Assembly (NCBI RefSeq): GCF_004349355.1
Contig: NZ_SMFK01000006.1
Span: 1-64,000, forward strand
DNA from: Flavobacterium cellulosilyticum
GTDB taxonomy: Bacteria; Bacteroidota; Bacteroidia; Flavobacteriales; Flavobacteriaceae
Length of the DNA: 64,000 nucleotides
Reading direction: 5' to 3'
The notes beneath the pieces are model-generated. The model saw only the letters and a list, made by a program, of their open reading frames with translations. It had not been told where the DNA came from and searched no databases. The position numbers and the translations under genes are program-made. This document shows positions 5,614 through 8,579 of the stretch, in pieces. The stretch's first letter is position 1. Every line of letters starts with the position of its first letter.

Positions 5614-5673
<60 letters not shown>

Positions 5674-5680
5674 CTTTCGT

Positions 5681-5741
5681 TGTACTCAGAGCGGGACTTG
5701 AACCCGCACGAACATTGCTGTTCACTGGATTTTAAGTCCAG
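5681..5741 (-). pseudogene. Truncated tRNA-Leu(UAA): 3' half only
   Basis: On the minus strand: anticodon arm CTGGA-CTTAAAA-TCCAG (anticodon TAA), then a class II variable arm (GAAC-AGCAAT-GTTC), then T arm GCGGG-TTCAAGT-CCCGC, then the acceptor 3' strand TCTGAGT with discriminator A. The 5' half (acceptor 5' strand and D arm) is absent: directly upstream, separated by about 9 nt, is the CCA end of tRNA-Gly. No ACTCAGA partner strand is present nearby. This cannot fold as a tRNA, so it is a remnant or a deletion product (or an assembly error beside the homopolymer). Confidence 0.75.
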
Positions 5742-5750
5742 CGTTTGGTG

Positions 5751-5826
5751 TGGAGCGAAAAACGGGGCTCGAACCCGCGACCTCGACCTTGGCAAGGTCG
5801 CGCTCTACCAACTGAGCTATTTTCGC
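5751..5826 (-). tRNA. tRNA-Gly(GCC)
   Basis: 76 nt with encoded CCA. Acceptor GCGAAAA/TTTTCGC, D arm with AGCTCAGTTGGTAGAGC, anticodon arm CGACC-TTGCCAA-GGTCG (anticodon GCC), T arm CGGGG/CCCCG-type with GTTCGAG, discriminator T. All arms pair. It is the first gene of a short minus-strand unit that ends in the 5614-5673 terminator. Confidence 0.95.
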
Positions 5827-5972
5827 ATTCGCATTCTAATTAAGAACTCAATACTTGTTCTGTATTGCGGATGCAAATTTAAGACATTAATTCAATTACA
5901 CAAGTCTTTTTTACAAAAAAAACAACACTATTTCATAATCTTCTGATAACCTAAACTTTAAATACTAAAGAA

Positions 5973-8579
5973 TTATTTTCTAACTAACATTCTTTTTATT
6001 TCATTGAGCTTCATCAAAGCTTCTACTGGTGTAATGGTATTGATATCAATATTTAATATTTCTTCCTTAATTTCTTCTAATAAAGGATCATCTAGATTAA
6101 AGAAACTCATTTGCATTTCATCTTTTGAAGACTTCACTCCGCTTAAAACCTCACTAGAATGGTCTTTTTCTAATTTCTTCAATAATTTTTGCGCTTTCAA
6201 AATTACAATTTGCGGCATTCCTGCCATTTTCGCAACATGTATACCAAAACTATGTGCACTTCCACCCTTTACTAGTTTCCGAATGAATAGGACCGTGTCT
6301 TTTAATTCCTTGACTGCAACATTATAGTTTTGAATCCTCGGCAATGATTCGCTCATTTCATTCAATTCGTGATAATGCGTTGCAAATAATGTTTTAGGCT
6401 TAGATGGATGTTCGTGTAAAAACTCAGCTATGGCCCAAGCTATTGAAATCCCATCGTACGTACTTGTTCCCCGACCAATTTCATCTAAGAGCACTAAACT
6501 ACTATCAGAGATATTGTTAAGGATAGAGGCTGTTTCGTTCATTTCGACCATAAAAGTAGATTCCCCCATCGAAATATTGTCACTCGCACCAACTCTAGTA
6601 AATATTTTGTCGATAATTCCCATTCTTACATTGTCTGCAGGCACAAAACTTCCCATTTGAGCCAATAATACTATTAAAGCCGTTTGTCGCAAAATAGCCG
6701 ACTTTCCAGACATATTGGGCCCCGTAATCATAATCAACTGTTGTGTTTCCCTATCTAAGAAAACATCATTTGCAATATAAGGAGTTCCAACAGCCAATTG
6801 CTTTTCTATAACAGGATGTCTTCCGTTTTTAATATCCAACTCGAAAGATTCATCTAATTCTGGACAGCTATATTTATTTTCTATTGCTAATTGGGTAAAC
6901 GAACACAAACAATCCAATTGCGCTACCAAATTAGCATTCATTTGAACCGGCTTAATGTATGTTGCAATCCAACTCACCAATTGCTCAAATAATTCCGATT
7001 CAATCTTATGAATTTTTTCTTCGGCACCAAGAATTTTTGTTTCGTATTCTTTTAATTCTTCGGTGATATATCGCTCCGCATTGACTAATGTTTGTTTTCG
7101 GATCCATTCTGGCGGAACCTTGTCTTTATGCGTATTTCTAACTTCAATATAATAGCCAAAGACATTATTAAACGAGATTTTAAGAGACGTAATCCCTGTT
7201 CTTTCGGATTCTCTTTTTTCAATTCCATCCAAGAATTCTTTTCCTGAAGTTGAAATCGCTCGTAAGTCATCTAACTCTGCATTAATCCCTTTAGCAATCG
7301 CATTTCCTTTGGCTACAGCCACAGGAGCATCTTGATTTAAGGTAGTTTTTATTTTTTCTCGCAATAAATCACAACTATGCAAACTATCACCGATACTTTT
7401 TACAGCATCTTGAGGACTTTCTAAAGACAAGGTTTTTATTGGAATTATTGCATCAAGAGATTCTTTTAAATAGACTATTTCTCTTGGCGACACTTTCCCA
7501 GCAGCAATTTTAGAAATCAAGCGTTCTAAATCTGAAATCTGCTTTATTTGATGTTGTATTTTGTGCAATACCTCTTTATTATCTTTTAAATAAGAAACTA
7601 CTTGATGACGATTTCTAATTTTATGGATATTCTTTAATGGCAGTGCTAACCAACGTTTCAACAATCGTCCACCCATTGGCGAAAGCGTTTTATCAATCAC
7701 ATCCAAAAGCGTAACTGCATTGGGATTGTAGCTGTGATACAATTCTAAATTCCTAATGGTAAAACGATCCATCCAAACGTATTCATCTTCTGCAATTCGC
7801 TGAATTGCAGTGATATGTTGAACGCGATTGTGCTGGGTTTCTGACAAATAATATAAAATTGCACCAGAAGCAATTATCCCTTCATTTAATTCCTCTATTC
7901 CAAAACCTTTTAATGAAACAGTTTGAAAATGTTTCGTTAATAAATCGAAGGCATAATCTTCTTTGTATATCCAATCTTCGAGATAAAAACTATGAAAATC
8001 ATCTCCAAAGATTTCTTTGAATTCACTTTTCTTATTTTTAGGAATAAGAACTTCGCTTGGGCTAAAATTTTGCAAAAGCTTATCTACATATTCTGCATTT
8101 CCTTGAGATGTAAGAAATTCACCCGTAGACACATCAAGAAAAGAAATTCCAATCGATTTATTAGCAAAATAAATAGCCGCCAAAAAATTATTTGTTTTGG
8201 ATTGCAAAACCTCATCATTCATCGAAACTCCAGGCGTAACAAGTTCTGTCACTCCGCGTTTCACAATGGTTTTAGTCATTTTAGGATCTTCAAGCTGATC
8301 ACAAATCGCAACACGAAGTCCTGCTTTAACTAATTTTGGTAAATACGTATTTATTGAATGATGAGGAAAACCTGCTAAGGCTGTTTCTGTTTCGGAACCT
8401 GCTCCTCTTTTAGTTAAAGTTATTCCAAGAATTTTTGAAGCGCATACTGCATCTTCTCCAAATGTTTCATAAAAATCTCCCACTCTAAACAATAAACAAG
8501 CATCAGGATATTTCCTTTTGATTTCATTATATTGTTTCATTAACGGTGTTTCCTTGACCAATTTCTCTTTAGATGACAA
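5973..8579 (-). CDS. mutS: DNA mismatch repair ATPase MutS
   Basis: 868 residues, full length. MutS dimers bind mismatches and small loops and recruit MutL. Domain I carries the mismatch-wedge motif 'GDFYETFGEDA' (Phe36, Glu38). A connector, lever/clamp helices and the C-terminal ATPase follow: Walker A 'GPNMSGKSAILRQ' (about 618-630), 'STFMVEM', Walker B 'LVLLDEIGRGTSTYDG' and 'LFATHYHEL'. The C terminus has the helix-turn-helix dimerisation segment. It stands alone on the minus strand downstream of a 150-bp divergent gap shared with the DUF1573 gene, and about 150 bp before the tRNA unit. Nothing unusual in length or motifs. Confidence 0.98.
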   Translation of the reverse strand: MSSKEKLVKETPLMKQYNEIKRKYPDACLLFRVGDFYETFGEDAVCASKILGITLTKRGAGSETETALAGFPHHSINTYLPKLVKAGLRVAICDQLEDPKMTKTIVKRGVTELVTPGVSMNDEVLQSKTNNFLAAIYFANKSIGISFLDVSTGEFLTSQGNAEYVDKLLQNFSPSEVLIPKNKKSEFKEIFGDDFHSFYLEDWIYKEDYAFDLLTKHFQTVSLKGFGIEELNEGIIASGAILYYLSETQHNRVQHITAIQRIAEDEYVWMDRFTIRNLELYHSYNPNAVTLLDVIDKTLSPMGGRLLKRWLALPLKNIHKIRNRHQVVSYLKDNKEVLHKIQHQIKQISDLERLISKIAAGKVSPREIVYLKESLDAIIPIKTLSLESPQDAVKSIGDSLHSCDLLREKIKTTLNQDAPVAVAKGNAIAKGINAELDDLRAISTSGKEFLDGIEKRESERTGITSLKISFNNVFGYYIEVRNTHKDKVPPEWIRKQTLVNAERYITEELKEYETKILGAEEKIHKIESELFEQLVSWIATYIKPVQMNANLVAQLDCLCSFTQLAIENKYSCPELDESFELDIKNGRHPVIEKQLAVGTPYIANDVFLDRETQQLIMITGPNMSGKSAILRQTALIVLLAQMGSFVPADNVRMGIIDKIFTRVGASDNISMGESTFMVEMNETASILNNISDSSLVLLDEIGRGTSTYDGISIAWAIAEFLHEHPSKPKTLFATHYHELNEMSESLPRIQNYNVAVKELKDTVLFIRKLVKGGSAHSFGIHVAKMAGMPQIVILKAQKLLKKLEKDHSSEVLSGVKSSKDEMQMSFFNLDDPLLEEIKEEILNIDINTITPVEALMKLNEIKRMLVRK

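Follow-up and report, generated by a model that had tools for sequence, protein, structure and literature searches.

Has Flavobacterium cellulosilyticum lost its gene for tRNA-Leu(UAA), or has the gene been lost only from its assembled sequence? The question arises in a 64,000-nt stretch of one contig, here called the window, in which direct reading of the minus strand gives tRNA-Gly(GCC), then CACCAA, and then a 63-nt part of tRNA-Leu(UAA). Neither the 5' acceptor strand nor the D arm is present at the locus. A preliminary description had reported a 3' part of tRNA-Leu(UAA) next to tRNA-Gly, with those two elements missing, and both observations are borne out: the first by the sequence and by 70 of 80 relative loci with an identical gene part, the second by direct reading and by ARAGORN and Rfam, neither of which makes a call at 5744-5682. 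The assembled piece cannot function as a tRNA.

The assembled locus and its counterparts in relatives

The features of the locus are collected in Table 1.

Table 1. Features at and around the truncated tRNA-Leu(UAA) in the window.
Feature	Coordinates	Strand	Basis or remark
mutS, upstream neighbour	5973-8579	minus	all five MutS domains, Pfam MutS I-V
tRNA-Gly(GCC), intact	5826-5751	minus	ARAGORN; Rfam RF00005, 70.5 bits over 5826-5754
Putative deletion junction, CACCAA/ACGCT	5740-5750	minus	sequence and comparison with intact relatives
3' part of tRNA-Leu(UAA), 63 nt	5744-5682	minus	identity to the gene of relatives
ACGC, base of the anticodon stem	opens 5744-5682	minus	
tRNA-Leu(UAA) anticodon stem-loop, CTGGACTTAAAATCCAG	5741-5725	minus	arm named by eye
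tRNA-Leu(UAA) class II variable arm	5724-5708	minus	arm named by eye
tRNA-Leu(UAA) T arm	5707-5691	minus	arm named by eye
tRNA-Leu(UAA) 3' acceptor strand, TCTGAGT	5690-5684	minus	followed by A at 5683 and C at 5682
Terminator hairpin, GCCGTAAAGAATTAA / TTAATTCTTTGCGGT, with 29-T run	5614-5674	minus	

The 63-nt stretch occurs once in the window, and its identity to the corresponding gene part in 70 of the 80 distinct relative loci indicates that it is neither a chance match nor decayed. By eye, tRNA-Gly is preceded by the C-terminus of MutS in 84 of 86 rows, the window included. Given this arrangement and the five MutS domains of the neighbour, the locus is identified by sequence as the orthologous mutS - tRNA-Gly - tRNA-Leu locus. 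The terminator core CCGTAAAGAATTAATTTTTAATTCTTTGCGG is common to the window and to genomes G139, G325, G292 and G204. The homopolymer reported beside the locus was confirmed, and the T run that follows the terminator hairpin measures 29 nt (5642-5614, minus strand); such a run may reduce read quality at the locus. The run is longer than that of the relatives whose loci were printed.

At the same place relatives carry a spacer, then GCTCGGATGGTGAAATTGGTAGAC, then ACGCTGGACTT, as read in sets of 28 and 29 loci that have some genomes in common, with one locus of the second set (L149) parsed only at the later interval analysis. These loci were chosen by match rank or by hand rather than as a random sample, and the genus genome sets are themselves samples of a larger group. 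Comparison with the tRNA-Gly/tRNA-Leu pair of relatives, which had been proposed as a check, finds an intact gene there, whereas in the window its 5' acceptor strand and its D arm are both gone. Where no insert is present, the interval between the two genes is 38-45 nt in relatives as against 14 in the window, and the missing piece is estimated from these lengths at about 24-31 nt. The earlier suggestion of a deletion of about 35 nt thus agrees with the junction in kind, but the size is not upheld. Nor can the CCA of tRNA-Gly be fixed as standing in place of the leucine 5' half, as had been stated: many relatives read TCGCTCAAAACC after tRNA-Gly, so that CCACACCAA is ordinary spacer.

The ACGCT at the junction is a putative 5-nt microhomology. 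If the old spacer ended in AAAC before GCT, the junction is compatible with a 26-nt deletion between two ACGCT repeats, which is a fit and not a proof; among 63 distinct relative intervals, 7 have AC immediately ahead of the gene's GCT. The deleted length would be larger if a repeat array of the kind found in relatives had been lost as well.

The tRNA set and the demand for UUA decoding

The 36 contigs of the assembly add up to 4,657,187 bases, with completeness rated at 100% and contamination at 0.15%. Scoring of the best 150 of 405 candidates yielded 38 tRNAs, and among the matches listed the only leucine anticodons are GAG, TAG and CAA. Every other tRNA required by the code is present, with three CAT genes not told apart. 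A 15-mer from the anticodon arm has its sole exact match in the genome at this locus, the intact 5' side of tRNA-Leu(UAA) has no genome match with up to 3 mismatches allowed, and a shorter 5'-half pattern finds across the whole genome only the start of tRNA-Leu(CAA), with 3 mismatches. The preliminary description had reasoned that another Leu-UAA gene must exist if the truncation is real. Neither the tRNA set nor the 15-mer nor the 5'-half patterns reveals one in the assembly, and the genome-wide tRNA check for an intact Leu-TAA gene comes up empty among the candidates scored in the 36 contigs.

The genome nevertheless makes heavy use of the codon that this tRNA reads. A script selected 48 open frames within the window, each 150 codons or longer; in these, TTA accounts for 766 of 1686 leucine codons (45%) and is found in every one of the 48. 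Under established decoding rules UUA requires a UAA anticodon, and tRNA-Leu(CAA) reads UUG. Such use of TTA implies that the living genome should differ from what was assembled here.

Comparison across the genus sharpens the anomaly. Entire intervals were read for the loci printed and for those of the interval analysis. A 29-mer search with up to two mismatches, which is no proof that every gene is intact from end to end, finds the intact tRNA-Leu(UAA) stretch in 381 of 398 genomes and in 329 of 333 good ones, and F. cellulosilyticum is the only one of the 398 that is more than 95% complete and lacks it. Of the 17 genomes without the stretch, one is that of the window, at 100% completeness, another three reach 94-95%, and the remaining thirteen fall below 90%. 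Among the three at 94-95%, one (G361) has a contig end inside the interval between tRNA-Gly and tRNA-Leu, another (G317) has a contig end 170 nt past its mutS match, and a third (G240) has no mutS match either, among the matches listed in a mutS search that left 60 of the 398 genomes unscored.

It could be supposed that F. cellulosilyticum truly has no tRNA-Leu(UAA) and reads UUA by means of, say, a modified tRNA-Leu(CAA) or separately made halves. Genuine loss would be remarkable: UUA, the strain's commonest leucine codon, would then be read by another route. It is also very unlikely, and the supposition as a whole is hardly credible. The tRNA-Leu(CAA) of the window's genome is identical in 33 of 60 other genomes searched, 98% identical in four and 81% in one, and 22 of the 60 have no match at the threshold used. 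An adapted tRNA-Leu(CAA) was rejected on the grounds that the gene is unchanged relative to those 33 relatives; with that identity, nothing hints at an altered decoding system.

Possible explanations: artefact, hidden copy, integration or functional half

An essential tRNA is indispensable to the cell, so the gap most likely reflects an assembly or library error where deletions occur easily, and not some novel type of RNA. The explanation judged probable is that the locus holds the orthologous tRNA-Leu(UAA) gene and that the deletion is either an artefact of the assembly or library or confined to a minority, with the intact gene kept in the cells; the assembled deletion would then differ from the state of the living genome. 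The deletion could have arisen by slippage on a structured template during library amplification, by a false join made by the assembler or at a gap-filling step, or as a minority deletion within the culture. By any of these routes an intact gene would stand at the same locus in the cells and UUA would be read normally. In relatives the same interval often contains hairpin repeats, within or immediately ahead of which three assemblies break off. Assemblers are not known to join sequences over 5 nt on their own, so that an artefact requires the assumption of an unusual step. Among the origins first proposed, a deletion fits the junction, and an assembly or library fault best explains the absence of an intact copy; an integrative element is not favoured, as set out below.

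The deletion may alternatively be real and fixed, in which case an intact tRNA-Leu(UAA) would reside in unassembled DNA and the piece in the window would be a fresh tRNA pseudogene. The sites proposed for the hidden copy are a collapsed tandem Gly-Leu duplicate at this locus, a place behind an rRNA operon, or a lost plasmid. This account is possible, if doubtful, and ranks second to an artefact. Many genomes of the genus do have a second intact tRNA-Leu(UAA) stretch, and three to five are present in some species, in places close to one another (for example G172, G309 and G027). Four of the five rows nearest to the window by path in the mutS tree (G331, G299, G241 and G236) have two intact stretches each and the fifth (G110) has one, which makes the hidden copy a serious rival. 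Twelve second-copy loci were picked (L156-L167), six at draft contig starts and six in one-contig genomes. In all twelve, tRNA-Leu(UAA) follows tRNA-Phe. A 5S rRNA is found in eleven, ten times before tRNA-Phe and once after tRNA-Leu; the six from one-contig genomes also show the end of the 23S rRNA. A match to Flavo-1 RNA lies near two of them (L158 and L165).

Against a hidden copy, four 5S genes are assembled in the genome of the window with no tRNA in the 1500-nt assembled downstream flank of each, and the one tRNA-Phe in the assembly (C1:116176) has no adjoining tRNA-Leu; an intact second copy behind an rRNA operon, the arrangement of other species, was sought there and not found. The remaining required anticodons are all assembled, and the high mutS scorers G325, G204, G272 and G292 have a single intact stretch, at this locus only.

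A tRNA-targeting integrative element could have left the 3' half as a duplicate at its att site, as had been suggested. tRNA genes are frequent integration sites and partial copies are a known outcome, according to PMC9897764. Such an element leaves an intact gene along with the fragment, however, and no intact gene is found in the assembly. A second copy of the 3' half was likewise not found in the genome (best 40 of 73 candidates; other matches extend to about 20 nt at most). Six neighbouring proteins scanned between 864 and 9808, namely a DegT-family aminotransferase, a Kdo transferase, a PAS protein, MutS, a DUF1573 protein and a SpoU methylase, include no integrase. The fragment also occupies precisely the orthologous position, with tRNA-Gly on one side, the terminator on the other and mutS as neighbour. 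With no second 3' half among the candidates scored, no assembled intact partner gene and no integrase among the six neighbours, integration is scarcely to be expected here and the suggestion was set aside.

The 3' half might itself be used, either in a split tRNA whose 5' half is encoded elsewhere or as a tRNA-half-like RNA in front of the terminator. Its undecayed state is in keeping with such use, and from its position between tRNA-Gly and the terminator it could be transcribed. Apart from the start of tRNA-Leu(CAA), however, searches that allowed up to 3 mismatches gave no 5' half in the genome. A single 7-mer in the 400 nt around the piece on its own strand, at 5956, is able to pair along the entire 3' acceptor strand, and by eye no D-arm-like sequence follows it. 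A split or permuted tRNA was accordingly rejected, given that there is no 5' half in the genome and no convincing acceptor-strand partner nearby, and use of the half in either form is highly improbable. The same truncation was also sought in other species by a pattern scan of GTDB r220 contigs, which detects only pieces after TTCGCT and may leave out the window's own genome; the 20 stretches recovered are all intact genes, in which TTCGCT includes the gene's own first bases.

Repeat units in relatives and published parallels

The interval between tRNA-Gly and tRNA-Leu exceeds 80 nt in 30 relative genomes and has a contig end inside it in two more (G247 and G361). Most of these 32 intervals hold units of about 65 nt, made up of the first 12 nt or so of tRNA-Leu and an AT-rich hairpin with an A-rich end, although the tRNA-Leu-like start is demanded by the cutting pattern itself. 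Loci with units include L146, L138, L127, L140, L198, L210 and L227. By eye, the longest intervals have four units, of which the first copies are worn, and G026 has two units with the species' own variant GCTTGGGTGGTG, the same as in the G026 gene. An exact unit pattern matches 32 of the 398 genomes, 23 at this locus and nine elsewhere that resemble chance, as compared with 4 matches in 3 genomes for the reversed control. A looser pattern yields at least one unit in 24 of the 30 uncut intervals and 32 units in total, mostly of 65-67 nt. Folding gives z values of -2.0 or below against 100 shuffles for 22 of these 32 units, which are related and not independent, and RNAalifold on a MAFFT alignment of the units returned no consensus structure (0.0).

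The array trait changes often along the mutS tree. The 29 rows labelled as arrays, a label given to any interval of 80 nt or more regardless of content, require at least 17 changes, 10 of which are forced by well-supported branches. The tree was built without L099 and L205, in which the chosen open frame is by eye not MutS, without L225 (less than 700 nt) and L074, L208 and L213 (no frame), and without repeated rows. The window has a long branch at a fork that the tree does not resolve, and its five closest rows by path have no array; species with arrays do share the terminator core of the window. Contigs break off within the array or immediately ahead of it at L204 (G247), L212 (G361) and L214 with L213 (G137), and in G137 the rest of the locus is on another contig. 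In the genome of the window, no repeat unit was found by the exact pattern, and a similarity search whose query held about 135 nt of array gave nothing significant (best 40 of 90 candidates). A past array in this genome is conceivable; the missing units and the array-free tree neighbours count against the artefact reading.

Repeats at the tyrT locus of Escherichia coli copy the 3' end of a tRNA-Tyr gene and are the nearest known parallel to the units with a tRNA-Leu start; literature searches gave nothing on them. A literature search for tRNA-Leu repeats in Flavobacterium likewise gave no paper, a weak indication that the units are new.

Among the partial tRNA genes of prokaryotes, those described in PMC9897764 come from the integration of mobile elements, with partial and complete copies side by side, or from CRISPR spacers. 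The piece in the window resembles those fragments in being a recognisable part of a tRNA that is unable to work as one, and differs from them in that the assembly holds no intact copy and shows no sign of an element. The paper also treats the Arg-GCG gene of Pyrococcus furiosus, for which a missing base was ascribed to mutation or to an error in the reference and the gene was considered very likely to be functional (PMC9897764). Both are single-copy essential tRNA genes with missing sequence, but one nucleotide is missing in P. furiosus as compared with about 24-31 nt in the window. For a deletion flanked by short direct repeats, slippage on a hairpin template is a candidate route: archaeal polymerases are reported to slip in this way in vitro (PMC4134008), in work on other polymerases and templates rather than on this locus.

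In relatives this locus has hairpin repeats copied from the beginning of tRNA-Leu, and these deserve separate study. For the interpretation of truncated tRNA genes, codon usage and the full tRNA set should be checked before a piece is named a remnant or a functional half. The locus in F. cellulosilyticum suggests that a genome rated 100% complete can miss an essential tRNA when a minor error falls on a site prone to deletion.
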